The position numbers and the translations under genes are program-made. The notes beneath the pieces were generated by a model. It was not told the DNA's origin. It did no database searches and was given only the letters and a program-made list of their open reading frames with translations. Source: Thermobifida halotolerans (GTDB lineage: Bacteria > Actinomycetota > Actinomycetes > Streptosporangiales > Streptosporangiaceae). Taken from it: 64,000 bases of DNA. This document shows, piece by piece, positions 11,169-36,145 of this stretch (positions are counted from its first letter, which is position 1; the number at the start of each line of letters is the position of its first letter). The stretch lies in the NCBI RefSeq assembly GCF_003574835.2, contig NZ_CP063196.1, forward strand, positions 1,736,001 through 1,800,000, read 5' to 3'.

Positions 11169-11233
11169 GGAAAAGACCCCCTGGCGGTGGCGCGGACAAC
11201 GGGAGCGGGCACGACTGGGCCGACCCGACAACA

Positions 11234-11261
11234 ACTTCACGTATAGTACTTCACATGTAGT
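11234..11261. promoter_or_regulatory. Tandem 14-bp direct repeat, likely TetR operator
   Basis: ACTTCACGTATAGT (11234-11247) is followed immediately by ACTTCACATGTAGT (11248-11261). They match at 11 of 14 positions, and each is flanked by ACT...AGT in inverted orientation. They form the only AT-rich stretch between the divergent reductase-like gene and the tetR gene and cover the likely promoter region of both. Confidence 0.55.
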
Positions 11262-11295
11262 GGTTGTGGGTGTTGATCTTTCTGGAGGACCCCCT

Positions 11296-11871: not shown

Positions 11872-11883
11872 CCTTCCACCCGC

Positions 11884-12270
11884 TCAGGCGCGCAACCGCT
11901 CCAACAGCCACTCCCGCAACACCACGGCGTTGTTGCGCTCGGTGTCGGCCGCCGAGTACAACAGGGTCACCGGCCCGTGCCGCGCGGCGTCCACCAGCAC
12001 GGCCGACCGTTCGGGAGCACCGTCCAACTCGGCCCGGTAACGGTCACGGAACCCGGCCCAGCGCCCGGGATCGTGCCCGAACCAGCGACGCAACCCGGCA
12101 CTGGGCGCGACCTGCCGCACCCAGCCGTCCATGGGCACATCCGCCTTACGGACCCCGCGCGGCCAGACACGGTCGACAAGAAACACCCGCCGCCCGCGCG
12201 TGGCGGAGCCGTCACGCACCCCGGCGTCGTAGACCCTGCGCACCTCGATGTCGGTCGATGCGGTGTTCAT
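11884..12270 (-). CDS. DUF488 family protein
   Basis: 128 residues matching the DUF488 pattern: RRVYDAG near the N-terminus, then VFLVDRVWPRGVRKADVPMDGWVRQVAPS, RWFGHDPGRWAGFRDRYRAEL and LLYSAADTERNNAVVLREWL at the end. This family is widespread and its biochemical role is unknown. The gene runs convergently with the upstream tetR (12-bp gap) and stands alone. Confidence 0.88.
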   Translation of the reverse strand: MNTASTDIEVRRVYDAGVRDGSATRGRRVFLVDRVWPRGVRKADVPMDGWVRQVAPSAGLRRWFGHDPGRWAGFRDRYRAELDGAPERSAVLVDAARHGPVTLLYSAADTERNNAVVLREWLLERLRA

Positions 12271-20917: not shown

Positions 20918-21036
20918 CTCCGATCATTGGGGGACTCGTTCGCAGACATCCTCCAGGAATCACCGCCCAAGCGCGAAACGCACGTCCGCCGCTTTCCCGC
21001 CGCCACGCCCTGCCCCCACTCCAGGATGTGGCCCAA

Positions 21037-21081
21037 GGCGCACCGCCGGAAAGACCCCTTCGGTCTTCCCGGCGGTGCGCC
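21037..21081. repeat. Large imperfect palindrome (13 + 6 bp stem) between divergent genes
   Basis: GGCGCACCGCCGG (21037-21049) pairs with 21069-21081. Inside it AAGACC (21051-21056) pairs with GGTCTT (21062-21067) around CCTTC. It lies in the 351-bp interval between the divergently transcribed OmpA lipoprotein and NUDIX-like genes, where a terminator is not expected. The rest of the interval has no recognisable gene. Confidence 0.6.
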
Positions 21082-21268
21082 CCGGCCGCGACCGGGCACG
21101 GCGCCATCGAACCCGGACCGCCCCGAACTCCGGGGCGCGAAAAACGACACCGCAGGGCCGCCCACACCCTCGAAACCACACGAGCCCCGCCCACCGACCC
21201 ACACCGAACCCGCCGGTAGCACATCCGCCACGCGGATACCACCCGCCCGGATGCGGTAGGAACGAGGC

Positions 21269-21805
21269 ATGACCGATACCACGGACACCACACCGGTCTG
21301 GTTCTCCCCCGAGGAACTGGAGTCGGTACGCGACCGCATGCCGATCCTCTACATCAACGCGGTCCCGGTACGGACCGACGACCGGGGCGAGGTGACCAGC
21401 GTCGGCCTGCTGCTGCGCGTCGGCCCCGACGGCACCATCAACCGGGCCCTGGTCTCCGGACGCGTCCTCTACCACGAACGCATCCGCGACGCCCTGCTGC
21501 GCCACCTGGAAAAGGACCTCGGCCCCGTGGCACTGCCGCGCGTCCCCACCTCACCGCAGCCGTTCACCGTCGCCGAGTACTTCCCCACCCCCGGCGTCAC
21601 CCCCTACCACGACCCCCGCCAGCACGCCGTCTCACTGGCCTACGTCGTCCCGGTCACCGGCGACTGCCAACCCCGCCAGGACGCCCTCGACCTGGTGTGG
21701 TTCACCCCAGAGGAGGCCGCAGGCCCCGAAGTCCTGCAGGAGATGAGCGGCGGCCAGGACGTGCTGCTGCGCCAGGCCCTCGCCCACGTGGGCCGCCTGT
21801 CCTGA
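21269..21805 (+). CDS. NUDIX-related protein (DUF4916 type)
   Basis: 178 residues. WFSPEELESVRDRMPILYINAVPVR at the N-terminus, then GLLLRVGPDGTINRALVSGRVLYHERIRDALLRHLEKDLGP, and YHDPRQHAVSLAYVVPVTG with a final LDLVWFTPEEA match DUF4916/NUDIX-fold proteins of actinobacteria. The exact Nudix box (GX5EX7REUXEEXGU) is not conserved, so hydrolase activity is uncertain. The adjacent flavin monooxygenase gene starts 50 bp downstream on the same strand and may be co-transcribed. Confidence 0.8.
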   Translation: MTDTTDTTPVWFSPEELESVRDRMPILYINAVPVRTDDRGEVTSVGLLLRVGPDGTINRALVSGRVLYHERIRDALLRHLEKDLGPVALPRVPTSPQPFTVAEYFPTPGVTPYHDPRQHAVSLAYVVPVTGDCQPRQDALDLVWFTPEEAAGPEVLQEMSGGQDVLLRQALAHVGRLS

Positions 21806-21854
21806 CCCCGGGCGCCGGGCGGGAAAACACCCTGCCCGGCCCGGCGTTGCCACC

Positions 21855-22958
21855 GTGACACCCATCCGAGGCAAAGAGGCGACCCCGCAGCCGCGCGAGG
21901 TCGACGTCGCCGTCATCGGCGGCGGGCAGGCGGGCCTGGCCTCCGGCTACTTCCTGAGCAGACGCGGCCACACACCCGAACGCGACTTCGTCATCCTCGA
22001 CCGCTCCCCCGCCCCGGGCGGGGCCTGGCAGCACGTGTGGCGCTCGGTGCGACTCCTCTCACCGCCCCACCACACCCACCTGCCCGGACTCCCCTGGGAC
22101 CGCCCCTCCTCCGCCCCGCCCAGCGGACCGGAGGTCGCCGCCTACTTCGCCCGCTACGAGGAGCACTTCCGGTTTCCGGTGCACCGACCCGTCACGGTAC
22201 GCCGGGTCGCCAACGACGGCCCCGACGTCACCGTCACCCGCGACACCCCACTCCTCATCCACACCGACGCGGGCCGGTGGCGGGCCAGAGCCGTCATCAA
22301 CGCCACCGGCACCTGGGACCGCCCCTTCGTCCCCACCGTCCCCGGAGCCTCCGACTTCCGCGGCCGCCAACTGCACGCCGCCCACTACCACGCCCCCGAG
22401 GAGTTCACCGGGCAGCGCGTGGCCGTGGTCGGCGGCGGCCACTCCGCACTGCAGATCCTCGCCGAGATCTCCACCGTCGCCGACACCCTCTGGATCACCC
22501 GCCGCCCACCCGAGTTCCGCACGGCCCCGCTCACCGAGGCCGACCTGGTCGCCGTCACCGACGCAGTCGCCGCCCACGCCGCCACCGGCCGTCCGCTGCG
22601 CAGCGTCGTCAGCTACACCGGACTCGTGGAGACCCCCGAGGTGGCGCGGGCGCGCGAACGCGGCGTCCTGAAAGCGCGCCCGATGGTCGACTCCCTCACC
22701 CCCGACGGCGTGGCCTGGACCGACGGCACGACCGAACCCGTCGACACCATCGTGTGGGCCACCGGCTTCCGCCCCGTCCTCACCCATCTGGCGCCGCTGC
22801 GGCTGCGCTCCGAACTCGGCGGCATCAAGCTGGCCGACACCCGCGCCGCCGTCGACCCCCGCGTCCACCTGGTCGGCTACGGCCCCTCGGCCAGCATGAT
22901 CAGCGCCCACCGCGCCGCGGCCACCGCCGCCCGCGTCCTCGCCGCAGGACGGCCCTGA
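21855..22958 (+). CDS. Flavin-containing NAD(P)H-dependent monooxygenase-like protein
   Basis: 367 residues with an N-terminal FAD-binding Rossmann motif (VAVIGGGQAGLASGYFL, from residue 19), ATGTWDRPFVP in the middle, a second dinucleotide-binding motif (VAVVGGGHSALQ) for NADPH and a C-terminal IVWATGFRP. This matches class B flavoprotein monooxygenases of the short CzcO/ArsO type. The substrate is unknown. The start is GTG at 21855. It follows the NUDIX-like gene closely and precedes a convergent TetR gene. Confidence 0.88.
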   Translation: MTPIRGKEATPQPREVDVAVIGGGQAGLASGYFLSRRGHTPERDFVILDRSPAPGGAWQHVWRSVRLLSPPHHTHLPGLPWDRPSSAPPSGPEVAAYFARYEEHFRFPVHRPVTVRRVANDGPDVTVTRDTPLLIHTDAGRWRARAVINATGTWDRPFVPTVPGASDFRGRQLHAAHYHAPEEFTGQRVAVVGGGHSALQILAEISTVADTLWITRRPPEFRTAPLTEADLVAVTDAVAAHAATGRPLRSVVSYTGLVETPEVARARERGVLKARPMVDSLTPDGVAWTDGTTEPVDTIVWATGFRPVLTHLAPLRLRSELGGIKLADTRAAVDPRVHLVGYGPSASMISAHRAAATAARVLAAGRP

Positions 22959-22985
22959 ACCGTCGGCCCCGCGCGGGGAGACCGC

Positions 22986-23648
22986 TCAGTCCGCGCCGCG
23001 CGGCGGACGGAGGAGAGCGTCCAACTCCTCCGGGGTGAGCGGATCCGGCAGTGGGCTGGGATCGGGCGTGCGCAACCCGTCCAGGATGATGAGCAGGTAC
23101 CGCTTCCACACCTCGGGACGGACGGTCCGCACGTACTCGCTGACCGAACCGAGCATCATCCCGATGATCGGCATGTCCCGGTCGGTGATGTCGGACCGCA
23201 ACCGGCCGCTGCGCTGGACGCGTTCGACGACGGCCCGGATGGCGGGCACCAGCCGGTCCCTGGCCCGGGCCACGCGGTCACGGCCGTAGGTACCCAGCAG
23301 CGTGGCCTCGCGCAGACCCCGGTCACGGACGAACAGCTCGTTGGCGCGCACGGTGAAGCGCACGAACCCCTCCCAGGGGTCGTCGACGGCCAGCGCCTCC
23401 TCCGCCAGGGCCACCATGGCGTCGATCTGCTCCTCGAAGAGCGCCTCGACCAGTGCCTCCTTGCCGGAGAAACGGCGGTAGACCGTGCCCACGCCCACCC
23501 CGGCGCGAAGGGCGATGTCGTCCAGGGCGGCCTCCAGACCGCGTTCGGCGAACACCTCGCGTGCGGCGCGCAGGATGCGCCGCCGGTTCTCCTCGGCGTC
23601 CTTGCGCAGGGGGCGGGAGGACGGGGAGCGCGACGGTGGGGAACTCAT
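22986..23648 (-). CDS. TetR-family repressor of the adjacent MFS exporter
   Basis: 220 residues from ATG at 23648. The HTH is RILRAAREVFAERGLEAALDDIALRAGVGVGTVYRRFSGKEALVEALF, and a ligand domain follows. An upstream in-frame extension runs through the operator and was excluded. The gene is divergent from a DHA2 drug exporter, with a perfect 8-bp inverted repeat 18 bp from its start. It should repress the exporter and itself and release DNA on binding the exporter's substrate. Confidence 0.9.
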   Translation of the reverse strand: MSSPPSRSPSSRPLRKDAEENRRRILRAAREVFAERGLEAALDDIALRAGVGVGTVYRRFSGKEALVEALFEEQIDAMVALAEEALAVDDPWEGFVRFTVRANELFVRDRGLREATLLGTYGRDRVARARDRLVPAIRAVVERVQRSGRLRSDITDRDMPIIGMMLGSVSEYVRTVRPEVWKRYLLIILDGLRTPDPSPLPDPLTPEELDALLRPPRGAD

Positions 23649-23665
23649 GCGGCCAGCATAACCAA

Positions 23666-23688
23666 AAGCGGAGAGGTCACCTCCGCTT
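23666..23688. promoter_or_regulatory. TetR operator, perfect 8-bp inverted repeat
   Basis: AAGCGGAG (23666-23673) and CTCCGCTT (23681-23688) flank a 7-nt spacer. The site lies between the divergent tetR and MFS exporter genes and resembles the known AAGCGGAG-type operators of TetR proteins that control efflux genes. Confidence 0.75.
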
Positions 23689-23869
23689 GTGTTATCGTCA
23701 GTCAGCCGGAGGGGGAATCTCCACCTGGCGCACAACGGCCCACCGGCCCCACCACCGCCGATTCCGGCCCCGGCCGATCACCCACCACACACGGACCGGG
23801 ACCCGCCCTCCCCGCATCCCCTCCAGTCGAACCACGGGCCACCAGCCCCGGTCCCTTCGAGAAGGACAC

Positions 23870-25417
23870 GTGAGCACCCCAACACCAGCACGAGAGGGCA
23901 CACCGCACGGACCCGCCGAAAAGACGGTCGACCGGCGGACGATCCACGCCGTGTTCGCCGGGCTCCTCGTCACCATGTTCCTGAGCTCACTGGACCAGAC
24001 CGTCTTCGGCACGGCCCTGCCCACCATCGTCGGCGAACTCGGCGGCGTCAGCCGGATGCTGTGGGTGACCACCGCCTACATCCTCGCCGCCACCGTCACG
24101 ATGCCGGTCTACGGCAAACTCGGCGACCTCATCGGACGCAGGAACCTGTTCCTCGGCGCGCTCGTGCTGTTCCTCGCCGGATCGGTCATCGGCGGCCTCT
24201 CCCAGGACATGCGCTGGCTGATCGTCGGCCGCGGAGTACAGGGCCTGGGCGGCGGTGGACTGATGATCCTGTCCCAGGCGATCATCGCCGACATCGTCCC
24301 CGCCCGCCAACGCGGCCGCTACATGGGTGTGATCGGCGGAGTGTTCGCCCTGTCCTCCGTGCTCGGCCCGATCCTCGGCGGCTGGTTCACCCAGGGCATC
24401 GGCTGGCGCTGGGCATTCTGGATCAACATCCCCCTGGGACTGCTCGCCCTGCTGACCGCCGCGGTCTTCCTGCGCCCGCCCCAGCACGCCGTGCGGCGCC
24501 CCCGTATCGACGTCGCGGGCATCACGACCATGTCGGTGGCGGTCACCTCGATCGTGCTGTTCAGCTCACTGCTCGGCGACCACGCGTGGAACTCCCCCGC
24601 CCTCCTCTCGCTCGCCGCGGTCGCCGTCGCCGCGGCCACGGTCTTCATCCTCGTGGAGCGCCGCGCCGCCGAACCGGTCATCCCGCCGCACCTGTTCGCC
24701 GACCGCAACTTCAACCTGGCCACCCTCGCGGGGCTGTGCACCGCGCTGGCCATGTTCGGCGCCGTCGCCTACCTGCCCACCTACCTGCAGATGGTCTCCG
24801 GACTCAGCGCCACCAGGGCAGGGTTCCTGATGCTGTCCATGATCGGCGGGGTGATGGTCACCTCCGTGGTCACCGGCGGCCTGGCCAGCAGAACCGGACG
24901 CTACAAGTGGATGCCGATCGCTAGCTCCCTCGTCGTGACCGGCGGCCTGGTGCTGCTGTCCACGATGACCGTGGACACCCCGCTGGCAGCCGTCTGCTGC
25001 TACATGGCCATCGTCGGAGCGGGCATCGGGCTGGGCATGCAGATCCTGGTGCTGATCGTGCAGAACTCCTTCCCCAACTCCGAGGTCGGCACCGCCACCG
25101 CCGCCAACAACTTCTTCCGCGAGATCGGCGCCTCCCTCGGCTCCGCAGCCGTCGGTGCGCTCTTCACCCACAGGCTCACCACGCTCCTGGGCGAGAGGGC
25201 ATCCGTCGCGCCAGGCGGCGGCCACGGTGGGATCGACCAGGACTCCCTCACCCCGTCAGCCGTCAACGCGATGCCCGAACCGGTGCGCGACGCCATCATC
25301 ACCGCCTACAACGAGGCACTGACCCCGGTGTTCCTCTACATCACCCCGCTGTTGCTGGTCAGCACGGTCATCCTGTTTTTCGTCAAGGAGAAGCCGCTGG
25401 CTACCACCGTGCGGTGA
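23870..25417 (+). CDS. MFS multidrug exporter, DHA2 (EmrB/QacA) family
   Basis: 515 residues and about 14 transmembrane segments. Motifs are LDQTVFGTALPTIVGELGG in helix 1, GKLGDLIGRRN (motif A) and RGVQGLGGGGLMILSQAIIADIVP, all diagnostic of DHA2 drug:H+ antiporters. The start is GTG at 23870 with GAGAAGGA upstream, after a 200-bp leader from the operator. The divergent TetR gene and operator indicate ligand-inducible efflux. Substrates are not predictable. Confidence 0.92.
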   Translation: MSTPTPAREGTPHGPAEKTVDRRTIHAVFAGLLVTMFLSSLDQTVFGTALPTIVGELGGVSRMLWVTTAYILAATVTMPVYGKLGDLIGRRNLFLGALVLFLAGSVIGGLSQDMRWLIVGRGVQGLGGGGLMILSQAIIADIVPARQRGRYMGVIGGVFALSSVLGPILGGWFTQGIGWRWAFWINIPLGLLALLTAAVFLRPPQHAVRRPRIDVAGITTMSVAVTSIVLFSSLLGDHAWNSPALLSLAAVAVAAATVFILVERRAAEPVIPPHLFADRNFNLATLAGLCTALAMFGAVAYLPTYLQMVSGLSATRAGFLMLSMIGGVMVTSVVTGGLASRTGRYKWMPIASSLVVTGGLVLLSTMTVDTPLAAVCCYMAIVGAGIGLGMQILVLIVQNSFPNSEVGTATAANNFFREIGASLGSAAVGALFTHRLTTLLGERASVAPGGGHGGIDQDSLTPSAVNAMPEPVRDAIITAYNEALTPVFLYITPLLLVSTVILFFVKEKPLATTVR

Positions 25418-25723
25418 TCTCTTTCTGCCGTTTCTTCTTCAACTAAAACTCTTGATATATTAGTTCAGCGACCTTTACGATGTAGATTAATAAGGCCCGC
25501 GACGTGGCGAACCGAAGCGGCAGGTGTGCCGCAGCCCGGCACGGGTAACCGCATCCACCTCGGAGGAACCGACCCCCCGGGAGTGCGCGCGCCTCGGGGG
25601 TGTCCGGCCCCGCCCCTGCGGGGCGACCGTGAACCGGGGGGCGACAGGACCGGCGTCACCCGGCTCGGGTCCTTCCGGATCGGGGGCCGTTTCCCCTCCC
25701 ACGCCGAGGAGGTCCCGGCGGCC

Positions 25724-25755
25724 GTGGTGCCCGCCCGGCGCCGGGCGGGCACCAC
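25724..25755. terminator. 32-bp perfect palindrome between convergent genes
   Basis: Bases 25724-25739 (GTGGTGCCCGCCCGGC) are the exact reverse complement of 25740-25755, with no loop bases. It sits 17 bp beyond the helR stop and about 300 bp beyond the MFS stop. The interval before it (25430-25500) is unusually AT-rich (ACTCTTGATATATTAG) with no gene. It probably acts as the terminator for helR. Confidence 0.7.
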
Positions 25756-25771
25756 GTTGTCCCGGCCGACA

Positions 25772-27922
25772 TCAGGAGCTCGTGAGGATGACGAGTCGCT
25801 GTGTCGCCCGGGTCATCGCGACATAGCGGTCGACCGCTCCTTCGATCCCCCCGCCGAACGCCTCCGGGTCGACGAGGACGACCAGGTCGAACTCGAGCCC
25901 CTTGGCCAACTCCGGGGGCAGCGACCGGACGCGGGACGTCCCCCGGAACGCGGGATCGCCGATGACGCAGGCGATCCCGTCGGCATTCTCGGTGAGCCAG
26001 GTGTCGAGGATCGACCCCAGATCCGAGACGGATCCGTGGACGACGGGGACGCCGCCGCTGCGGACGGAGGTCGGCACGTTGGCGTCCGGGAGCACGGCCC
26101 GGATGACCGGCTCTGCTTCGGCCATGACCTCTTCCGGAGTCCGGTAGTTGATGCTCAGGGAGGCCAGGTCGATCCGGTCGAACCCGACCCGTTCGAGCCG
26201 TTGCCGCCACGACTCCGTGAACCCGTGCCTGGCCTGGGCGCGGTCCCCGACAATGGTGAAACTCCGGGACGGGCAGCGCAGCAGCAGTATCTGCCACTCC
26301 GCGTCGGTGAGTTCCTGCGCCTCGTCCACGACGATGTGCGCGAACGGGCCGGCGAGCAGGTCCGGGTCGGTGCCGGGCAGCGCGGTCTCGTCGATCAGGC
26401 TGTCCTGCAGGTCCTGTCCGCGCAGCATGGTCACCACACCTTCACCGTCGTCATCGGCCTGGAGCAGGCTGTCGATGACGTGGGACATGCGCTCGCGTTC
26501 GGCGGCGGCGGAGGCGTTGTACCGACGCCTGCGCCGTGACGCCTCCGGGTCGCCGAGCCGCTGGCGTGCCGCGTCCAGGAGCGGCAGGTCGGACACCGTC
26601 CATGCCTGGGCGTCCTCGCGCTGCAGCTTCCGAACGTCGTCGGGACTGAGCCAGGGGGCGCACCTGCGCAGGTAGGCGGGCACCGACCACAGGTCTGCGA
26701 CGAGGTCGGTCGCTTCGATCAGCGGCCACGCGCGGTTGAGGGCCCTGATCAGCTCCGTGTTCCGCAGCAGCGACATCCGGAGCAGGTCGGGCGGGACGTC
26801 GTCATCGTCGTGCTTGTCCATCAGGATCGCGAGCAGTTCCTCCAGGATCTGTTCGCGCGCTTCGTTGTGCGGAGTACCTGGTTCCGGTGCTTCGAACGCC
26901 TCGGCCCAATCGTCGGCGCTCAACCAGATGTCGGACCAGTCCGTCGCGACCGTCATCCCCTCGGTGGGCGGCTGTTCGTAGAACCTGACGGCCGGCTCGA
27001 TCGCCTTCACCAGGTTCGCGGAGGACTTCAGGAGGGCCACGTCCGGGTCGGTCTCGACCGTCGCCGAGGCTCCCTCGGGGACGAGGTCCCGCAGGGTGCA
27101 GGTCTGCACGCCCTCCTCTCCGAGGCTGGGGAGGACGTCGGCGACATAGGCCAGGTAGGGCTGGTGCGGACCGACGAACAGCACGCCGCCCCGACGGCGG
27201 CCGAGGCGGGGGTCGGAGTAGAGGAGGTGGGCGGTGCGGTGCAGGGCGACGACGGTCTTTCCCGTGCCCGGACCGCCGTCGACGACGAGAGCGCCACGGG
27301 ATCCCGCGCGGATGACGGCGTCCTGGTCGGCCTGGATGGTGCCGAGCACGTCTCGCATCCGGGCCGACCGGTTGCCGCCCAGGCTGGCGATGAAGGCGGA
27401 CTGGTCGTCGAGTGCGGCGTGCCCCTCGAATCCGTCCGCGGTGAACACCTCGTCCCAGTAGTCGCTGATCCGGCCGCGGGTCCAGCGGTACCTGCGGCGG
27501 CTTGTCAGTCCCATCGGGTTGGCGTGGGTCGCCGCGAAGAACGGCTCGGCCGCGGGGGAACGCCAGTCGAGCAGCAACCGACGTCCTTCGCGGTCGGTCA
27601 GACCGAGCCGTCCGATGTACACGGGCTCGGGGTCGTCCGCTGTGACGATGCGTCCGAGGCACAGGTCCAGGCCGAAGCGGCGCAGGGCGCGCAGGCGGGC
27701 GGTCAGCCGGTGGATCTCCATGTCCCGGTCCATGACCTCCCGGCCTGTGCCGCCGGACGTCCTGCGTCTGGCATCGAGGCGGTCGGACAGGTCGGCGATC
27801 GTCTGTTCGAGGCTCTCCGCGATGGCCGCGAAGTGCTGCTCGTCTCCGGCGATCAGTGTCGGGTCGGCTTTGGCGGCGAGGTGGCCGGGGAGGTCGAACG
27901 CGCTGGTGGTCAGTGGCTTCAC
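25772..27922 (-). CDS. helR: HelR/HelD-like RNA polymerase-recycling motor ATPase
   Basis: 716 residues from GTG at 27922 (GGGAGA upstream). The order of parts is typical of HelD-class SF1 proteins: an N-terminal antiparallel coiled coil (about 25-85) that enters the RNA polymerase secondary channel, domain 1A with Walker A GGPGTGKT at 216-223, a long insertion, then domain 2A with VVDEAQELTDAEWQ, VGDRAQARHG, NYRTPEEV and a final YVAMTRATQRLVIL. HelR dislodges stalled or rifamycin-bound RNA polymerase and thereby gives rifamycin tolerance. Assignment to HelR rather than generic HelD rests on the rifamycin-associated element in its promoter and on overall resemblance. Confidence 0.88.
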   Translation of the reverse strand: MKPLTTSAFDLPGHLAAKADPTLIAGDEQHFAAIAESLEQTIADLSDRLDARRRTSGGTGREVMDRDMEIHRLTARLRALRRFGLDLCLGRIVTADDPEPVYIGRLGLTDREGRRLLLDWRSPAAEPFFAATHANPMGLTSRRRYRWTRGRISDYWDEVFTADGFEGHAALDDQSAFIASLGGNRSARMRDVLGTIQADQDAVIRAGSRGALVVDGGPGTGKTVVALHRTAHLLYSDPRLGRRRGGVLFVGPHQPYLAYVADVLPSLGEEGVQTCTLRDLVPEGASATVETDPDVALLKSSANLVKAIEPAVRFYEQPPTEGMTVATDWSDIWLSADDWAEAFEAPEPGTPHNEAREQILEELLAILMDKHDDDDVPPDLLRMSLLRNTELIRALNRAWPLIEATDLVADLWSVPAYLRRCAPWLSPDDVRKLQREDAQAWTVSDLPLLDAARQRLGDPEASRRRRRYNASAAAERERMSHVIDSLLQADDDGEGVVTMLRGQDLQDSLIDETALPGTDPDLLAGPFAHIVVDEAQELTDAEWQILLLRCPSRSFTIVGDRAQARHGFTESWRQRLERVGFDRIDLASLSINYRTPEEVMAEAEPVIRAVLPDANVPTSVRSGGVPVVHGSVSDLGSILDTWLTENADGIACVIGDPAFRGTSRVRSLPPELAKGLEFDLVVLVDPEAFGGGIEGAVDRYVAMTRATQRLVILTSS

Positions 27923-27977
27923 GCCGTCTCCCGTGCCGTGGGTTCTGGTCACGGTCGACGATTCTGCGGCAAGACCC

Positions 27978-27996
27978 GGGGCTTGCCGCAAGCCCC
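27978..27996 (-). promoter_or_regulatory. Rifamycin-associated element (RAE) upstream of helR
   Basis: The helR strand reads GGGGCTTGCGGCAAGCCCC, a 19-bp palindrome matching the published RAE type found before rifamycin-inactivating genes and helR in actinomycetes. It lies 56 bp upstream of the GTG start. A candidate promoter (TTGACG, 18 nt, GCTATA) lies immediately upstream on the same strand, so the element falls near the transcription start. An overlapping 9-bp inverted repeat (TGCGGCAAG/CTTGCCGCA, 27965-27990) extends it on the helR side. Confidence 0.82.
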
Positions 27997-28050
27997 CGGG
28001 TGGGCTATAGCTTGAGAGTGGAGGGGAGTCGTCAAGACCCTCTCCCCTGA

Positions 28051-28077
28051 CCGTCCGCCGTTGACGGACGGCCTTTT
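28051..28077 (+). terminator. Intrinsic terminator with U-tract facing away from helR
   Basis: CCGTCCG (28051-28057) pairs with CGGACGG (28065-28071), followed by CCTTTT. The T-run shows it works on the plus strand, yet no plus-strand gene lies upstream within 2.5 kb. It sits just upstream of the helR promoter. The remaining stretch to 28439 holds no recognisable gene, but becomes AT-rich from about 28235 and should contain the promoter of the downstream RiPP genes. Confidence 0.6.
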
Positions 28078-28439
28078 CACGCAGCGGCGTCGCGCCGCGT
28101 CCCCCTCTTCCCACGCTGAAAGCGTTCCCGGCCGCCCCGCGCACCGTCGCCGGGGTCGTGTCCCGGCTCACCGTGCCAGCACCGGACCGCGGCGGCTCCG
28201 TCGCCGTCCGGGATTTCCCATCCACCCCGAATGCGGGCAAACATAAGAACGGTACGCATTTATTCTCCGAAAACGGAGTCCGCGTTTCCTCTCTCCGGAA
28301 ATGGAAGCCCATCCCCCTCTCCCGCCCCTGTCGCACCGGCGCCGATACGGGCGTTTTTTCGCGGCCGCCGAGCTTTTATCCTTCCCAACCCGGGGAATAG
28401 GATGGAAGAAAGAAATCACCCCGTCCCGGAAGTCGAGCG

Positions 28440-28694
28440 ATGGATTTCTCCCCCCTTGTCCTGACCGAAGACCGCTTCCCCACCGGACTGCCCGGGCGGC
28501 GCGTTCCCGTCCGCGTCGAACAACCGAGCGCGCACCGTCCGTGGGGCATGGACCAGGCCCGCCCGCCGCTTCCCGTCTCCTTCTCAGGCAAGCACGAGAA
28601 GCCCACCACCACCCGCCAGGAGACCGTGCCCACCCAGTACAGCGAGGACAGCGAGGTACGGCCCGACGACTACACCCAGACCGTGACCGACTGA
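28440..28694 (+). CDS. Graspetide (omega-ester peptide) precursor, fuscimiditide-like
   Basis: An 84-residue peptide directly before an ATP-grasp ligase and a PIMT-like methyltransferase. The N-terminal two thirds form the leader and contain HRPWGMDQARPPLPV (residues 32-46), the PWGL/M motif seen in ATP-grasp-target RiPP precursors (TIGR04186 type). The C-terminal core from about residue 54 is Thr-rich then acid-rich: PTTTRQETVPTQ (55-66), YSEDSEV (67-73), RPDDYTQTVTD (74-84). In graspetides an ATP-grasp enzyme joins Thr/Ser hydroxyls to Asp/Glu side chains. The Thr cluster at 56-58, 62 and 65 and the acids at 69, 70, 72, 76, 77 and 84 are the likely donors and acceptors. The stop overlaps the ligase ATG by one base. 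Confidence 0.8.
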   Translation: MDFSPLVLTEDRFPTGLPGRRVPVRVEQPSAHRPWGMDQARPPLPVSFSGKHEKPTTTRQETVPTQYSEDSEVRPDDYTQTVTD

Positions 28695-29668
28695 TGCGCG
28701 ACGGCGGGAAGGTGCTGATGCTGGCCGCAGGCGACGACGGTGAGGCCGACCGGGTGGCCGCGCGGCTCACCGAGCGCGGCGCCGCCTTCTTCCGCCTGGA
28801 CACCGCCGCCTTCCCCGCCGTCTGCACGGTCACCGCCGAACTGGGTCCCTCCGGCTGGCACGGCACCATCACCACACCCGAAGGAGTCCTCGACCTGACC
28901 GAGGTCGACGCGGTGCTGTACCGCCAGCCCCGCCCGTTCGACCTGCCCGCCGACCTGAACACCTCGGAGCGCCGCTTCGCGCAGGTCGAGGCCCGCTTCG
29001 GCCTCGGCGGCCTGCTCTCCTCCCTGCCCGCACGCTGGGTGCCCGGCACTCCCGGCCGGGTCGCCGACGCCGAGTACAAACCGGTGCAACTGGCCGCGGC
29101 CGCCCGCTGCGGCCTACGCCCGCCTCCCACCCTGGCCACCAACAGCCCCGACGCCGCCCGCTCCTTTGCCGCCAGCCACGACGGCGGAGCCGTGTACAAG
29201 GCGTTCATGCACAAGGTCGTCGCCGACGACGGCCGACTCCGCCTCATCTACACCAGTCGGGTCGACCCCGCGGCGGTGGACGGACGGGTCGCCGTCACCA
29301 TGCACCAGTTCCAGGCCAACCTGGCCGCCCGCAAGCGTTTCGACGTCCGCGTCGTCGCCACCCGCCACCGACACGCCGCCGTCGCGATCGCCTCCGACAG
29401 CCCACAGGCCCGCCAGGACTTCCGCAGTCACTACGACACCCTCACCTACCGGCCGGTCGCACTGCCGCCGGAGGTGGCCGAGGGCTGCCGCCGGTATCTG
29501 CGTCTCCTAAAGCTGCGGCTGGGCGTTTTCGACTTCTGCGTCACCGACGACGACCAATGGCATTTCCTGGAATGCGGTCCCGGGGCGCAGTGGGCCTGGC
29601 TGGAGGAGGCCACCGGAATTGTGATGGGCGACCTGGTCGCCGACGCGCTGCTCAAGGACTCGCCATGA
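28694..29668 (+). CDS. ATP-grasp graspetide ligase (ThfB-like RiPP maturase)
   Basis: 324 residues with the MvdD/RimK-like ATP-grasp layout. The N-terminal domain (VLMLAAGDDGEADRVAARL, FFRLDTAAFP, DAVLYRQPRPFDLP) is followed by the core with PGRVADAEYKPVQL, GGAVYKAF, FQANLAARKRFDVRVVATR, LRLGVFDFCVTDDDQWHFLECGP and GAQWAWLEEATG. The D-F-C/E-C-G-P segment supplies Mg-ATP ligands. This matches ATP-grasp ribosomal peptide maturases (TIGR04187 type), which form ester or amide crosslinks in the upstream precursor. It overlaps the precursor by one base and the methyltransferase by four (ATGA), so expression is coupled. Confidence 0.88.
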   Translation: MRDGGKVLMLAAGDDGEADRVAARLTERGAAFFRLDTAAFPAVCTVTAELGPSGWHGTITTPEGVLDLTEVDAVLYRQPRPFDLPADLNTSERRFAQVEARFGLGGLLSSLPARWVPGTPGRVADAEYKPVQLAAAARCGLRPPPTLATNSPDAARSFAASHDGGAVYKAFMHKVVADDGRLRLIYTSRVDPAAVDGRVAVTMHQFQANLAARKRFDVRVVATRHRHAAVAIASDSPQARQDFRSHYDTLTYRPVALPPEVAEGCRRYLRLLKLRLGVFDFCVTDDDQWHFLECGPGAQWAWLEEATGIVMGDLVADALLKDSP

Positions 29669-30762
29669 CCCTTTTGTCCGCCCCGGAATGGCGGTCGCTG
29701 CTGCTCGCCCTCGCCGACACGCTCCCCGAGGACGTGGTGGCCGACCCCGCCTGGCGCCGCGCCTTTCTGTCGGTCCCCCGGCACGTGTTCGTGCCCGGCT
29801 TCTACGGCGACCAGCGGCCCCGGCCACGCTGGATCGGCCCCGACGACCCGTCCTGGCTGCCGCGTGTCTACTCCGACGTCTCGCTGGTCACCCAGATCCG
29901 CCAACACCCCGACGACCCGCGCAACTGGTGGCCCACCTCCTCCAGCAGCCGCCCCTCCCTCATGCTGGCCATGCTCCACGCCCTCGACGTCGCCGACGGC
30001 ATGCGGGTGCTGGAACTGGGCACCGGTACCGGCTACAACGCCGCACTGCTCACCGCCCGCCTCGGCGAGGCGGGCGTGGTCTCCGTCGACATCGACCCCG
30101 CCCTGGTGGAGGAGGCCCGCGACCGCCTGGCCCGCCTCGGCCTGCACCCGACGCTCGCCGTGGCCGACAGCACCGCAGGCCATCGTGCCGCCGCCCCCTA
30201 CGACCGGGTGATCGCCACCCACTCGGTGGAGCGGGTGCCCTACGCCTGGGTGGAGCAGACCCGCCCTGGCGGCGTCATCCTCGTCGACATCCGGTCGGTC
30301 GGCAACGCCCGCGTGGGCCACATCGCCCGCCTGACCGTGCACGCCGACGGCACCGCCACCGGCGACTTCCGCGCGGTCGCCTCGGGGTCGTTCATGCCCG
30401 CCCGCCGCGAGGTCGCCGTCCCCGACCAGCGCCTGCTGCCCGCCCGCGACCTGCGCGACGCCACCACACGCGCCAGCGACCTCGGCGGCGGCGTCCTGGC
30501 CGACCCGGACCTGGCGTTCGCGCTGTGGGTGACCGTACCCGACCTCAGTATCGTCCCCACCGGCCCCCGGACACTCGTGTTCACCCCTGACGGCTCGTGG
30601 GCAAGCGCTCCCGCGGACCCCGGCAGGGTGCAGGTCGCCGGAGAGCGCGACCTGTGGCACGCGGTCGAGGAGGTCCACGCCGCCTGGCAGGCGGCGGGAC
30701 GTCCCCGGGTGGAGGAGTACACCGTCACCGTGACCGAGCACGGGCAGCGCATCGAGGCGTGA
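29665..30762 (+). CDS. PIMT-like O-methyltransferase of the graspetide cluster (ThfM-like)
   Basis: 365 residues. The N-terminal about 230 residues are a protein-L-isoaspartate O-methyltransferase fold: RHVFVPGFYG, the SAM motif VLELGTGTGYNAALL, VSVDIDPALVEEARDRLA and YDRVIATHSVERVPYAW. A C-terminal extension of about 130 residues, absent in housekeeping PIMT, is typical of the TIGR04188 'ATP-grasp peptide maturase system methyltransferase'. In fuscimiditide biosynthesis (described in Thermobifida fusca) such an enzyme methylates an Asp of the ester-crosslinked peptide, which then cyclises to aspartimide. Candidate Asps here are in RPDDY (residues 74-78 of the precursor) and SEDSE. The ATG overlaps the ligase stop. 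Confidence 0.88.
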   Translation: MTLLSAPEWRSLLLALADTLPEDVVADPAWRRAFLSVPRHVFVPGFYGDQRPRPRWIGPDDPSWLPRVYSDVSLVTQIRQHPDDPRNWWPTSSSSRPSLMLAMLHALDVADGMRVLELGTGTGYNAALLTARLGEAGVVSVDIDPALVEEARDRLARLGLHPTLAVADSTAGHRAAAPYDRVIATHSVERVPYAWVEQTRPGGVILVDIRSVGNARVGHIARLTVHADGTATGDFRAVASGSFMPARREVAVPDQRLLPARDLRDATTRASDLGGGVLADPDLAFALWVTVPDLSIVPTGPRTLVFTPDGSWASAPADPGRVQVAGERDLWHAVEEVHAAWQAAGRPRVEEYTVTVTEHGQRIEA

Positions 30763-30764
30763 GG

Positions 30765-31289
30765 TCAGGCCCCGGCCCGGATGCGGGTGTCGTAGTCGGA
30801 ATGCGGTTCCAACCCGACGGCCGCGCGGCGCTCGTCCAGCCCCTCGGGGTCCTCCACCTCGTACAGTCGCACCTCGCCGTCGGGCAGACGCAGGTACTGG
30901 GTGCCGTAGCGCTGCGGCATCCCCTCGTGGCAGCGGACGCGGTCCTCCAGGTAGGCGAGTTCGGTGGCTTCGGCCTCCCCCGCGGCGACCGCCTCGCGCA
31001 GCAGGGGCAGGCAGCGCTGCTGCAGGTCGTGTGGGGCGTGCTGGACCAGCAGCCACGCGGCGTGCGCGCCGTCCTCACCCACCAGGCTGCGTCCCGGCCA
31101 GCCGTGCTCGCCGATGACATCGCGCAGCCACGCCGTGTTGTCCCTGTCGACCGGGGCGACGGCCCGCCGCCACTCCTCGGGGTCACGGCCGACCGGAACG
31201 GCCGTGCGCGCCTCGGTGTCCCGCCGCGCCCGCGCCAGCAGTTCCTCCCGCAGCCGTGCCCTCGGCTCAGTGGTGTGGTCGTGCATCAT
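30765..31289 (-). CDS. DUF6624 family protein
   Basis: 174 residues. NTAWLRDVIGEHGWPGRSLVGEDGAHAAWLLVQHAPHD, LEDRVRCHEGMPQRYGTQY and LDERRAAVGLEPHSDY match DUF6624, a helical protein family of unknown function in actinobacteria. Two consecutive ATGs follow AGGAGGGACAC. It converges on the graspetide methyltransferase with two bases between the stops, so it is unlikely to belong to that cluster. Confidence 0.82.
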   Translation of the reverse strand: MMHDHTTEPRARLREELLARARRDTEARTAVPVGRDPEEWRRAVAPVDRDNTAWLRDVIGEHGWPGRSLVGEDGAHAAWLLVQHAPHDLQQRCLPLLREAVAAGEAEATELAYLEDRVRCHEGMPQRYGTQYLRLPDGEVRLYEVEDPEGLDERRAAVGLEPHSDYDTRIRAGA

Positions 31290-31512
31290 GTGTCCCTCCT
31301 GGAAAAGGCCCTGGGAGTGGTCACCTTGCCACGGAACCCGGCCTCACCCCTGCCGTTCCCGACGCCGCGAGTCGTGTTCCCGGGAGACGGCCCTGACGTC
31401 CGAGTGAAGTTCCGGGAAAGTCGGCGGTTCCGCGCGGTCCCCGCTCGGTGGCGTCGGTGGCACCGGCCGCTGCCGACGGCTGGACGCAAACACCGGGCCG
31501 GTCGCGGACCGG

Positions 31513-31791
31513 TCAGACGCCGAACCCACCCAGCCTGAGCGCGAACCAGCCCAGGGCCGCCAGGGGGACGGCGAGGAGCAGTGACAAAACCCTGCCGTAC
31601 AGACCGCGACCGGCGAGAGCGGCGACCACCACGGCCAGGCAGATCTCGACGGGGGCCGTCTCCGGTAGCGGGTTGACGTCGCGAGTGACCCGTGTCGCGG
31701 CCTCACTCAGCAGCACGGCCACCGGAAACGCGGCGCGCCGCGCGCAGGTGACCGGCGAACCGAACACGCATCCGGCGAGCACGCCACCCAC
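31513..31791 (-). CDS. Small hypothetical membrane protein, possibly truncated
   Basis: 92 residues from a GTG at 31791, with about three hydrophobic segments (GGVLAGCVFGSPVTC; PVEICLAVVVAALAG; GRVLSLLLAVPLAALGWFAL). The frame stays open further upstream without a supported start or ribosome binding site. It may be the C-terminal part of a larger membrane protein. No family recognised. The interval from here to 32081 shows no other gene. Confidence 0.4.
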   Translation of the reverse strand: MGGVLAGCVFGSPVTCARRAAFPVAVLLSEAATRVTRDVNPLPETAPVEICLAVVVAALAGRGLYGRVLSLLLAVPLAALGWFALRLGGFGV

Positions 31792-32081
31792 CAGCCAACC
31801 GCAGCCGCTGCCACAATCCCGTACGCTCCCCCTCCGGCGCCCGGATGCCGTCAGAGGAGGGCCGCGGGTGTCCCGCCCGGTACCGGAACTGCGCGGTTCC
31901 TCCCGCTCCTGCTGTCGGTCATGTGGACTTCGGACACGGTGGATTCCCGCGTCCGGCGGCACCCGGCGGGCGTGGACGGAACGGCTCGGCGCGTTCTTCG
32001 TGCCGCAGGCGATGATCCTGGGACCTGCGGGACCAGAACGCAGTTCACGGTCTGCTCCCGTCGAGACCATCGCGGGTGCGG

Positions 32082-33497
32082 TCAGATGCGGGAAGTGTCC
32101 AGTTGCTCCAGATAACGCTGGAACTTGACATTGTAGATTTCTGATCGGTCGGTGGGGCGCACCACCGGGTCCCGGTGCGGTCGGGGCCGGGCCATCTCCA
32201 GGGCGGCGGCGCGTGCCGCCAACTGGGCCGCGCCCAGGGCGGAGGCGCTGCGCAACCGCACCGGGTGCAGTTCCACGCCGAGCACGTCGGCGAGCAGGGC
32301 GCGCAGGCGCGGGTCGCGCGCTCCTCCCCCGGTCAGGCGGACGGTGGGCGGCAGGCCGTCGGGCAGCAGGGTGGCGGCGTGGCGCAGGGTGAAGGCCACG
32401 CCCTCCACGGCGGCGCGCAGGATCTCGGTGCGGCCGGTGGCCAGGCGCAACCCCGACAGCGCCCCGGACACCCCCAGGGCGGGGGTGCGCTCCCCCGTCA
32501 GGTGGGGCAGGAACACCACTCCCCCGCTGTCCGGCGCGCCTTCCACGGCGGCGTACAGCTCCTCCCAGGTGGCGCCCAGCAGGGCGCGCACCCAGTCCAG
32601 GGCCAGTCCGGCGTTCTGCACGGCGGCCATGCGGTACCAGCCCGCCTTCTCGGCGGTGCGGTAGACGTGTACGCCGGGAACCGGGGCGGGTTCGGCCGCG
32701 CCCGTGACGATCTGGGCGCCGCTGCCCACGGTGATCTGGACCTGTCCGGGGGCCAGACCGGCGGCCAGCAGCGCGGCGGGGGTGTCGCCCGCTCCCGCGG
32801 CCACCGGGATTCCGGAGGGCAGTCCCAGTTCGGCGGCCGCGTCCTCGCGCAGGCGGCCGGCCGCCTCGTCGGAGGCGACCACCGGCGGCAGCAGCCCCTC
32901 CGGGACGTCGGCGGCGCGCAGGGCCGCCCCGGACCAGGCATCGGCGGGCACGTCCCACAGCAGGGTCGCCGAGGCGTCGGAGGGGTCGGTGGCCGCGGCG
33001 CCGGTCAGACGCAGCCGCAGCCAGTCCTTGGGCAGCAGCGCCCAGCGCGCCCGGGCCAGGGCGGCGGGTTCGTGGCGGGCCGTCCAGGCCAGCAGCGGTC
33101 CCGTCATGCCGGGGACCAGCGGGTTGGCCAGGCGCTCCCGGTCGGTCTTTGCGAGCTCTTGCCAGCGGTCGAGTTCGGCCCCGGCCCGCTGGTCGGCCCA
33201 CAGCAGTGCCGGCCGCACGGGCTCGGCGTCGTCACGGGCGAGCACGAGGCCGTGCATCTGCCCGTCGACGCCCACGGCGGTGATCGTGGGGTGGTCGGCG
33301 CGGCACAGCGCGGCGCGGACCGCGGCCACGGTCGCCGCCCACCAGGCGTCCGGGTCGGTCTCGGTCCGCCCCGGACGCGGGGAGCGGACCGGGCAGGCGG
33401 CGTCGGCCTCGCCCAGCACGGTCGCGTCCGCGCCCACCACCACGGCCTTGACGCCGCTGGTGCCCAGGTCCACGCCCAGCAGCGCGTCCCGTCCCAT
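32082..33497 (-). CDS. FGGY-family carbohydrate kinase (xylulokinase-like)
   Basis: 471 residues with the two-domain FGGY fold: DALLGVDLGTSGVKAVV (phosphate 1 motif), ITAVGVDGQMHGLVL (substrate-binding region with the MHG typical of xylulokinases), PKDWLRLRLTG, then VAAGAGDTPAALLAAGL and RLTGGGARDPRLRALLADVLG (adenosine motif). It phosphorylates a pentulose or related sugar, possibly D-xylulose. A second, clearer xylB is located beside xylA. This one lies 24 bp downstream of a lysylphosphatidylglycerol-synthase-like membrane gene and is probably co-transcribed with it, so a different substrate is likely. Confidence 0.85.
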   Translation of the reverse strand: MGRDALLGVDLGTSGVKAVVVGADATVLGEADAACPVRSPRPGRTETDPDAWWAATVAAVRAALCRADHPTITAVGVDGQMHGLVLARDDAEPVRPALLWADQRAGAELDRWQELAKTDRERLANPLVPGMTGPLLAWTARHEPAALARARWALLPKDWLRLRLTGAAATDPSDASATLLWDVPADAWSGAALRAADVPEGLLPPVVASDEAAGRLREDAAAELGLPSGIPVAAGAGDTPAALLAAGLAPGQVQITVGSGAQIVTGAAEPAPVPGVHVYRTAEKAGWYRMAAVQNAGLALDWVRALLGATWEELYAAVEGAPDSGGVVFLPHLTGERTPALGVSGALSGLRLATGRTEILRAAVEGVAFTLRHAATLLPDGLPPTVRLTGGGARDPRLRALLADVLGVELHPVRLRSASALGAAQLAARAAALEMARPRPHRDPVVRPTDRSEIYNVKFQRYLEQLDTSRI

Positions 33498-33521
33498 CTG
33501 TTCCTCCTCGTCGCGCGCGGG

Positions 33522-35912
33522 TCAGATCGCTCTGCGGTGCTGCAACCGGGTGAAGGCCAGCCATCCGGGCAGCACCGGAAGCCAGAAGGTCAGCAGCCGG
33601 AACAGCAGGACTCCCGACAGCGCGCCCGCGGCGGGCACCCCCGCCACGGCGGTCAGTCCGCCGATGAGGGCGGCCTCGACCGCGCCGAGGCCGCCCGGTG
33701 AGGGCGCGGCCGAGCCGATGGCGTTGCCCGCCAGGTAGACGACGCCGACGGCGGCCAGTGACGGGGCCACACCGAACGCCCTGAGGCTGGCGTACAGGCA
33801 CAGCACCAGGCAGACGGTGAGCAGCAGCGTACCGCCGAGTCCCAGGAGCAGGCGGCGCGGCTGCTGGATGAGGTCCAGCAGTTGCGGCAGCACCCCGTGG
33901 AGGTGGGGGCGCAGCCGCCCGACGGCGGCCCGGCGCAGCCGCGGGATCGCCAGCACGGCCGCGACCAGCACCGACAGCACCCCCACCACGACCAGCAGGG
34001 TGAACGACGGGGAGAAGTCGCCGGGGTAGTCGGTGTTGGACAGGTAGGCGCTCAGCACCAGCAGGGGGACGAGGGTGACCACCCCGGCGAGTTGGGAGAC
34101 GCCCACGGCGGAGACCGCCTGGGCGGTGGTGGCGCCCTCGCGGACGAGGTAGCGGGTGTTGATCGCGAGTGAGCCCACGCCCGCGGGGGTGGCGATGCGC
34201 ACGAAGGAGGAGGCGTACTGGACCAGTACGGTGCGCCACAGCCGCAGCCGCACCGGGGAGAAGCCGAGCAGCGCGATGGCGGGGGCCAGCACGCACAGCA
34301 GCGACAGGGCGACGGCGGTGCCGGTCCAGGCGGGGTCGGGGTCGCTGATGGTGGTCCAGTCGACCCCGGCGAGCTGGTAGGCCAGGGCCAGGCCGACGAC
34401 GGTGACCACGGCGACGGTGACCACGGTGCGCGGCGGCATCCGCTCCAGTTGCACCGGTTGGGCGGGCGCGTGGGGGGCGATGCGGGAGATCTCCTCGCGC
34501 ACCTGTCCCAGCAGGCCGCGGTGGGCGCGTACGGCACGGCGCAGCGCCGGGGGCAGTCCGGCGCTCTGCAGGAACGGCAGGATGGCGGCGACGGTGTCGG
34601 TGTCGGTGTTGCGCACCGCCGAGGCCACGGCGCGGCGCGGCCCCACCCGCAGGGCCAGCGTGACCAGCAGGGCGGCGTTGTCGAGGGAGACGGCCCAGGT
34701 CCCGGCGGCGATGCTGCCGGTGGACAGCCCGACGAAGGCGGCGCGTCCGTCGGCGCGGCGGGTGACGACGTCGGGGCTGATCGCGCGGTGGGCGATGCGG
34801 TGGCGGTGCAGCAGGCGCAGTTGTGCCCAGACCTCGTCGAGGAACGCGTCGGTCAGTTCGGTGTCGGCCAGGTCGGTGAGCGGGCGGAGGCTGACGTGCT
34901 CGCGGACCAGGACGGCGGCCGCGGCTTCGAGATCACCGACGGCCAGCAGGCGGGGGGTGGCCGTGCCCGCGGCGGCGGCCGCGTACTCCAGCAGGGCGGT
35001 GTGCTCGATCCGGTCGCGCAGCCCCAGCAGCAGCGGCGGGGCCGCCGCGTTGCGCAGCACGATCTTCGACAGCAGCCGCTTCCACACCCCGCCCACCGGG
35101 TCGGAGTTGACCACCGTCACGTCCAGGCGCCGGCTGACGGTCTCGGCGACGAACCGCTGGTTGCCGTCGGAGTCCTCGCCGACGGGGTCCAGGCACAGCG
35201 GTTCCAGGCCCAGCCGGGTCAGTTCGCGGACGAGGCGCCCGGCGGCGGGGGGCGGAGTGCTCATCCCCACGACGTAGCTGACCAGGGAGGCGCAGACCGC
35301 GCCGACGAGCAGGGTCAGCACCAGGGAGAGCGCGGTGGTGTATCCGGACAGCAGCACCGAGGTGGCGGTGACCGCGACTCCCACCGCCATGGCGCCCATG
35401 ACGCGGGGCAGGTGCACGGAACGGCTGGCGTGCAGGTAGGCGACGACGGCGGCGAGGTAGGCGTGCAGCGGGTTGCTGGCGACGCCACCGGTGGTGGAGA
35501 CGCTCAGGATGTCGGGCATCGCGGGCCCGGTGAGGGCGACCAGGGCCGTGTTGAGGGCGACGGTGGCGCCGTAGCCGAGTCCGGCCGCGGCGAGTGAGCG
35601 CACCACGTGGCGGAGGTCGCGGCTGGCGAGGCGTTCGGCCACCGTGACGCCGCCCAGCAGCAGCACGGTGAGGTTGGCCAGGCCCGCGGCCAGGCCGAGC
35701 AGCGGCGGCGGCAGCAGGGAGCGCAGTTCGGGGGGATCGGCGCCGCCCGGCAGCTCGGTGACCGGAGACGGTTCGGCGGAGGCCGCGACGACCAGGAGCG
35801 CGAGGGCCAGCAGCACGGCGCCCGCGAAGGTGAACAGCAGGTCGAACGGCCGTCGCGCGATTCCTCCGGCCGGGCCCGCCGCGGCTTTGGGTGTGGACTG
35901 CCCTGTTCTCAC
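33522..35912 (-). CDS. YbhN/LPG-synthase-type membrane protein with pseudokinase segment
   Basis: 796 residues from GTG at 35912. An N-terminal membrane region of five to six helices (LLFTFAGAVLLALALLVVAA onward) covers 1-210. A soluble segment of about 210-500 resembles an ABC1/AarF-like or aminoglycoside-kinase fold, with RFVAETVSRRLDVTVVN, LVREHVSLRPL and HRIAHRAISPDVV. The catalytic loop has HRAIS in place of an HxD sequence, and the DFG site is replaced by VGLSTG, so it should be inactive. A C-terminal lysylphosphatidylglycerol synthase TM (UPF0104/YbhN) domain of about eight helices follows (INTRYLVREGATTAQAVSAV; GSAAPSPGGLGAVEAALIGGL). It belongs to a widespread actinobacterial family, possibly lipid flippases. 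It shares an operon with an FGGY kinase. Confidence 0.85.
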   Translation of the reverse strand: MRTGQSTPKAAAGPAGGIARRPFDLLFTFAGAVLLALALLVVAASAEPSPVTELPGGADPPELRSLLPPPLLGLAAGLANLTVLLLGGVTVAERLASRDLRHVVRSLAAAGLGYGATVALNTALVALTGPAMPDILSVSTTGGVASNPLHAYLAAVVAYLHASRSVHLPRVMGAMAVGVAVTATSVLLSGYTTALSLVLTLLVGAVCASLVSYVVGMSTPPPAAGRLVRELTRLGLEPLCLDPVGEDSDGNQRFVAETVSRRLDVTVVNSDPVGGVWKRLLSKIVLRNAAAPPLLLGLRDRIEHTALLEYAAAAAGTATPRLLAVGDLEAAAAVLVREHVSLRPLTDLADTELTDAFLDEVWAQLRLLHRHRIAHRAISPDVVTRRADGRAAFVGLSTGSIAAGTWAVSLDNAALLVTLALRVGPRRAVASAVRNTDTDTVAAILPFLQSAGLPPALRRAVRAHRGLLGQVREEISRIAPHAPAQPVQLERMPPRTVVTVAVVTVVGLALAYQLAGVDWTTISDPDPAWTGTAVALSLLCVLAPAIALLGFSPVRLRLWRTVLVQYASSFVRIATPAGVGSLAINTRYLVREGATTAQAVSAVGVSQLAGVVTLVPLLVLSAYLSNTDYPGDFSPSFTLLVVVGVLSVLVAAVLAIPRLRRAAVGRLRPHLHGVLPQLLDLIQQPRRLLLGLGGTLLLTVCLVLCLYASLRAFGVAPSLAAVGVVYLAGNAIGSAAPSPGGLGAVEAALIGGLTAVAGVPAAGALSGVLLFRLLTFWLPVLPGWLAFTRLQHRRAI

Positions 35913-36145
35913 GTCCCCTACCCTGCCCCGACCGGCCGCGGATTGTCGCGCTGGGCGGCCTGATGCTCCAACATCCACGTCAGGTGCTGCTCCTTCGGTT
36001 CGGAAATCACCACGGTCGCGTCTTCTCCGGGGAGAGGTTCGCACGGTTTCCGCCGTGGGGTGGGACGGCGGAATCGTCCCATGCAACAGGACGGTAATCT
36101 CACCGGAAGCGCTGTTTGTGCCGCTGTTGCCGTCAAAGGAGAGAC

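Follow-up and report, generated by a model that had tools for sequence, protein, structure and literature searches.

The window analysed here, a stretch of 64,000 nucleotides from the 5.5-Mb genome of Thermobifida halotolerans, carries a compact three-gene cassette whose assignment to the aspartimide-type graspetides (graspimiditides, group 13) is well supported by sequence homology. Conservation and structural modelling suggest that the cassette probably makes a graspimiditide with two nested omega-esters and an aspartimide at D70, and that its ligase would be active with a changed metal site. The class is known; judged from its sequence, the cassette is a new variant with its own core and leader type, an Asp-Ser site and an altered ligase metal site.

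The cassette and its class

The cassette comprises genes for a precursor peptide (A), an ATP-grasp ligase (B) and a PIMT-like methyltransferase (M), with the following features.

28440..28694, + strand: precursor peptide A, 84 aa (15 relatives, purifying selection)
28536..28550, + strand: leader motif RPWGM, residues 33-37 (conservation in 16 precursors)
28590..28691, + strand: core region, residues 51-84, KHEKPTTTRQETVPTQYSEDSEVRPDDYTQTVTD (beginning deduced from the conserved KHxKPT)
28647..28652, + strand: D70-S71, proposed aspartimide site (conservation, predicted hairpin turn)
28694..29668, + strand: ATP-grasp ligase B, 324 aa (TIGR04187, AlphaFold2, solved-fold matches)
29570..29578, + strand: E293-C294-G295, ExN metal-ligand motif with Gly for Asn (ligase alignment survey)
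29665..30762, + strand: PIMT-like O-methyltransferase M, 365 aa (TIGR04188, PF01135)
30010..30039, + strand: SAM-binding motif LELGTGTGYN, residues 116-125 (sequence motif)
30685..30705, + strand: WQAAGRP, residues 341-347, matching WXXXGXP as found in PIMT homologues associated with RiPPs (motif definition from PMC13001092)

Re-reading of the sequence confirmed the three genes, their coordinates and overlaps and the residue numbers given in a first-pass annotation of this DNA. Genes A and B overlap by 1 base (TGATG) and genes B and M by 4 bases (ATGA). The ATG at 28440 is the earliest ATG, GTG or TTG past the upstream stop of the precursor frame.

Ligase B matches TIGR04187 (E 1.7e-97) with 326.4 bits, under the curated cut-off of 350, which the ligases of relatives L035, L039 and L041 also miss. 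Methyltransferase M matches TIGR04188 (E 1.2e-104) with 350.6 bits, under the curated cut-off of 380, and PF01135 with an E value of 3.2e-27. M (METHYLTRANSFERASE) retains a PIMT core along with the SAM motif and, at its C-terminal end, WXXXGXP (W341-P347). Precursor A has no Pfam or NCBIfam match, TIGR04186 included, up to E 1, and its best phmmer hit in the PDB has an E value of 0.41. A whole-genome scan of the window genome with TIGR04186 gave no matches, though the controls of that scan gave no signal either. The fuscimiditide-type genes of genome G040 pass all three cut-offs (precursor 57.9 bits on TIGR04186 against a cut-off of 25, ligase 465.8, methyltransferase 438). The TIGR04186 cut-off alone says little, since the fuscimiditide-type precursor of G086, a genome of the window's genus, also falls below it (19.5 bits against 25).

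The features that mark graspimiditides are seen together in the window. An ATP-grasp peptide ligase of clear homology adjoins the precursor, the PIMT homologue has a C-terminal extension with WXXXGXP, and the core has an N-side Thr, a 10-12-residue loop holding an Asp and a C-side Asp. Imiditides and type I pamtides also use a PIMT homologue with the WXXXGXP motif, but there it is the sole modifying enzyme, whereas the window has a ligase with most catalytic positions conserved. The graspetide-plus-aspartimide class proposed in the first-pass annotation is thus supported by gene set, motifs and core architecture.

Both genes flanking the cassette, encoding a UvrD-like helicase and a DUF6624 protein, agree with the earlier remark that no transporter or protease is adjacent. 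Seven neighbours (selected ORFs, 19343-36086) were checked against Pfam; the only transporter among them is encoded by an MFS gene some 3 kb upstream of the cassette. In 15 loci read with a rough gene caller, some of them ending at contig ends, M-, B- and A-type genes were found in 13, 12 and 10, respectively, and no other gene family was present in more than five. These loci thus lend no support to a dedicated transporter, protease or regulator. Homologues of the DUF6624 gene lie 3' of the cassette in four of the 15 loci. According to PMC12291112, a native protease is known for no graspimiditide, so that the absence of protease and transporter genes is no argument against this class. XRE regulator-like genes lie near L035, L041 and L048 and DUF397-like genes near L035 and L048 (both named by eye); XRE/DUF397-type pairs are described as possible in group 13 clusters (PMC13097080). 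A scan for sigma-70-type promoters found none, and the one terminator-like site, on the minus strand, compares with 0.5 expected.

The precursor core and its predicted links

A ligase match at 1e-20 was retrieved from 155 of 297 genomes of the same GTDB family, with one match in the window genome. The window precursor type was present in 12 (window included) of the best 30 ligase loci of a longer list. A scan of named genomes added precursors in Actinomadura syzygii, A. rubrisoli and Murinocardiopsis flavida, and also placed the window type in T. cellulosilytica, Nocardiopsis suaedae, three Actinomadura, Marinactinospora thermotolerans, Sinosporangium siamense and Streptosporangium violaceochromogenes. 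When 394 genomes of the class were searched with a profile, nine gave a match: four strongly (own genome included), G582 and G421 more weakly, and three marginally. The precursor set consists of the window and 15 relatives, that is, 15 close precursors and the distant L059, from a genome (G582) of another family of the class. The L059 core, KPTRKTVTKATHETVTRDGAGEGYEPDSYTEVVYD, has the same 10-residue loop with Asp-Gly at loop position 2, and Val and Tyr in place of two of the C-terminal Thr.

Several relatives show further variation at their loci. L052 (Murinocardiopsis flavida; 6001-7944) is a decayed cassette: its precursor is intact, its ligase ends after about half the length beside a purD-like gene (named by eye), and no methyltransferase match was found within 12 kb around the locus. 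Directly upstream of the L041 cassette (G128; 6428-7860), a gene for a short peptide rich in Gly, Asp and Lys overlaps that of a second PIMT homologue with 40% identity to the window M, which by eye looks like a type I pamtide/imiditide pair. Just downstream of the L040 cassette (Streptosporangium violaceochromogenes, G101; 10642-11936), an ORF of 41 aa, rich in Pro, Lys and Asp, overlaps the gene of a second PIMT homologue and seems to form an imiditide-like pair with it.

The leader motif read as PWGM in the first-pass annotation is present as RPWGM. R33, P34, G36 and M37 occur in all 16 precursors and W35 in 15, with Phe in L059; the corresponding motif in the ThfA-type precursor of G040 is RPFGM. 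All 16 precursors have a Thr 11 positions before the inner Asp, leaving a 10-residue loop, and all end in Asp, 8 positions past the inner Asp (10 in L040). In the 15 close precursors T56, T65, D76 and D84 are invariant, whereas T57, T58, T62 and D77 vary: position 57 is Thr in 4, Ser in 7, Lys in 2 and Glu in 2; position 58 is Thr in 12, Ser in 1 and Asn in 2; and position 62 is Thr in 8, Lys in 5 and Pro in 2. Position 77 is Asp in 9 of the 16. The loop Asp lies 5 residues past T65 in 14 of 16 precursors and is followed there by Ser (10), Gly (3) or Asn (1). The exceptions are L059, with Asp-Gly at +2, and L041, which has Asn-Asn-Gly-Gly instead of a loop Asp and keeps its methyltransferase.

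Among three same-genus copies, whole-precursor pN/pS is 0.26-0.29 in frame and above 1 in both other forward frames; the short core gives 0.17-0.48. A chance ORF is ruled out by the 15 relatives and by this in-frame purifying selection.

AlphaFold2, run on the 16-row alignment with no esters in the model, predicts one beta-hairpin with strands 58-69 and 72-83 and a weak leader. The mean pLDDT is 66.8; by ten-residue blocks it is 53-59 up to residue 50 and then 75, 89, 88 and 83. With the register read from the strand ends, facing residues sum to 141, which pairs 65 with 76 and 57 with 84 and places 70/71 at the turn. In fuscimiditide the loop between Thr7 and Asp18 also has 10 residues, and the pairs Thr7-Asp18 and Thr3-Asp22 share one sum (PMC12291112). 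From the conservation, the strand register and this shared sum, we propose esters T65-D76 and T56/T57-D84 and an aspartimide at D70-S71.

On this evidence the aspartimide probably lies at D70, and the esters probably use D76 and D84 as acceptors. For the partner of D84, both T56, which is invariant, and T57, which faces D84 in the predicted register, are put forward. Two aspartimide candidates had been named earlier. D70-S71 is favoured by its conservation and its place at the predicted turn; D76-D77 in RPDDY is disfavoured, given that residue 77 is Asp in little more than half of the precursors and that D76 fits better as an acceptor for an ester. Of the acceptors listed earlier, D76 and D84 are conserved and D77 is not.

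We propose that B would bind the leader through the RPWGM region and phosphorylate core Asp side chains with ATP, upon which Thr hydroxyls would attack. Probably two nested omega-esters would result, T65-D76 closing the 10-residue loop and T56 or T57 joining D84 outside it. M would then methylate the loop Asp D70, and attack by the amide of S71 would expel methanol and give an aspartimide at D70, which could open to isoAsp. Enzymes encoded elsewhere would remove the leader and export the product. Against this scheme count the L041 locus, which has M but lacks a loop Asp, the displaced loop Asp of L059, and the scores of A, B and M on the TIGR models.

The number of links may be larger than two. 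For example, D77 or the C-terminal carboxylate could take a further link from T58, T62 or K62, as many cores have such extra nucleophiles together with D77, and a side-chain-to-C-terminus link has been suggested for SsfA (PMC10787088). The irregular occurrence of Asp at position 77 and the mixture of Thr, Lys and Pro at position 62 speak against it, and we regard more than two links as a possible but rather doubtful outcome.

The ligase and its altered ExN motif

The AlphaFold2 model of B has a pLDDT of 96.1, and its best solved folds are PruB, MdnC, AMdnB, CdnC and MdnB, with PsnB lower in the ranking. PruB (9bou), MdnC (5ig9), MdnB (5ig8), AMdnB (7m4s) and CdnC (7mgv) match B over the whole length in both sequence and fold; all five have ExN, whereas the window ligase has ECG. 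This Asn-to-Gly change lay outside the claims of the first-pass annotation. Misalignment is ruled out, as the sequences keep their length here and Asn stands at this position in all five solved structures. Compared with the canonical metal site of an acidic ligand plus ExN, B keeps D280 and E293 and has Gly295 for Asn; no source found states the ExN Asn as part of the graspetide definition.

The ExN position was surveyed in 140 rows, most of them from a single GTDB family; L152 duplicates the window, so that 139 loci are distinct. L049, L052 and L168 have no residue there. The 136 readable loci have 125 Asn, 10 Gly and 1 Asp, and L049 gives an eleventh Gly when its 3' ligase piece is read in a shifted frame. 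Every Gly-type ligase accompanies the window precursor type; L039, L040 and L041, with the same precursor type, keep Asn. Of the 37 ligases placed in a tree, 13 accompany the window precursor type (10 Gly, 3 Asn); these cluster together with support 100/100 and are separate from the fuscimiditide pair. The topology is compatible with Gly having arisen either once or twice. One ligase alignment (A3) was built from 91 of the 135 sequences available.

Of the positions with at least 98% conservation across the 126 non-Gly ligases, only two differ in every member of the Gly set, N295 (to Gly) and G298 (to Ala/Ser). K169, Q207, R219, D242 and E293 are kept in all 10 Gly-type ligases. At less conserved positions, W243 is replaced by Phe in 10 of 10 and K129 by Arg in 5 of 10. 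D280 is lost only in L034 (Nocardiopsis suaedae, G008), where this upstream metal-site Asp is missing (FDF to FGF) along with the ExN Asn, while the precursor and methyltransferase look intact. The AMdnC mutants K165A and D280A are inactive (PMC5934393), and through the 5ig9 alignment, allowing for MdnC and AMdnC numberings that differ by one, we infer that these residues correspond to window K169 and D280. The L034 ligase may therefore be impaired, its D280 being lost where the AMdnC counterpart is essential.

In the ATP-grasp kinase Asp1, the motif Asn ligates metal M2 and is not essential, whereas two Asp ligands are (PMC9765450). Since most of the active site is kept in B and the Asp1 motif Asn is dispensable, the simplest reading is that B remains active as a ligase although its metal site is altered, in that Gly would occupy the place of the second-metal-ligating Asn. 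General decay of the ligase is disfavoured by the kept active-site positions and by selection on B similar to that on M: among the three same-genus copies pN/pS is 0.36-0.54 for B and 0.44-0.53 for M. A fuscimiditide-type ligase pair, however, has a pN/pS of 0.30, lower than B.

Loss of the ExN Asn may nevertheless mean lost ligase activity, as all 126 non-Gly ligases have Asn at this position except one with Asp; the changes at G298, at W243 and, in half of the Gly set, at K129 count on the same side. More broadly, the lineage ligase without the second-metal Asn could be a one-metal ligase or a non-catalytic scaffold that gives M an unstapled beta-hairpin, a graspetide becoming an imiditide, which we consider unlikely. 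In a specific form of this idea, the Gly-clade B performs no ligation and only holds the precursor, M modifies the uncross-linked hairpin, and the product is nearer to an imiditide than to a graspetide. The spread of Gly through the clade, the additional loss of D280 in L034 and the hairpin predicted for the bare core are consistent with it. Furthermore, imiditide and cysimiditide PIMT homologues act on linear or zinc-folded peptides (PMC13001092), and truncated, catalytically inactive ATP-grasp proteins are described from other graspetide loci (branch 8; PMC8939145). However, the other invariant active-site positions and the core Thr/Asp pairs are conserved in the clade, and B is not clearly more relaxed than M. 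The methyltransferases of characterized graspimiditides, for which the leader is dispensable, leave linear precursors unmodified (PMC13001092). We therefore give this form little credence and prefer the reading that B is active with a changed metal site. No literature on metal residues of graspetide ligases, and nothing related on ATP-grasp peptide pseudoenzymes, was found in open-licence papers.

Relation to fuscimiditide and other graspimiditides

ThfA, ThfB and ThfM of Thermobifida fusca were compared through the matching genes of G040, which is equated with T. fusca on the strength of the TMRVT and DVEKD stem (PMC12291112) found in its precursor. Fuscimiditide shares with the window the three gene families, the 10-residue loop between inner Thr and Asp and a loop Asp for M. 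Its gene order is B-A-M, whereas that of the window is A-B-M, and its ligase keeps ExN, belongs to another clade and has 42% identity to B. Its core, AGTMRVTYPDGQKPGQSDVEKD, has an Asp-Gly site where the window has Asp-Ser. A core comparison with fuscimiditide had been advised earlier, and the window core proved to be a different one. The window precursor gives a weak match to the fuscimiditide-type precursor of G086 (E 6.5e-5, 29%) and none to the TIGR04186 model. Despite the common genus, gene families and loop length and this weak match, a simple orthologue of the fuscimiditide cluster can be practically dismissed: the ligases fall into separate clades, each with support 100/100, gene order and core differ, and G086 has both a window-type and a fuscimiditide-type (B-A-M) cassette at separate places (L031, L043).

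Amycolimiditide, albusimiditide and SsfA(BM) are, like the predicted window product, graspimiditides with a PIMT homologue and a stem-loop (PMC13001092). Set beside the window by their description, the four characterized graspimiditides have two to five esters, and in all of them the modified Asp precedes a Gly; Ser counts among the residues that sequence leads one to expect in that following position, and going by the same source no Asp-Ser case has yet been tested in graspimiditides (PMC13001092). Three published lists hold 962, 1,326 and 1,432 graspimiditide-type clusters (PMC13001092) and may well include the T. cellulosilytica copy of this cassette. A putative Thermobifida alba precursor is mentioned in PMC12291112. 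No description of the core type or of the Gly change was found in the main text of the open-licence literature searched.

With this cassette, the genus that yielded fuscimiditide has a second type of graspetide, whose core is conserved and distinctive and whose Asp-Ser site takes the place of the Asp-Gly seen in all four characterized members. The clade with Gly for Asn, its active site mostly kept, is a natural experiment on the metal ions needed by an ATP-grasp ligase, and L041, with no loop Asp and its methyltransferase kept, is a second.
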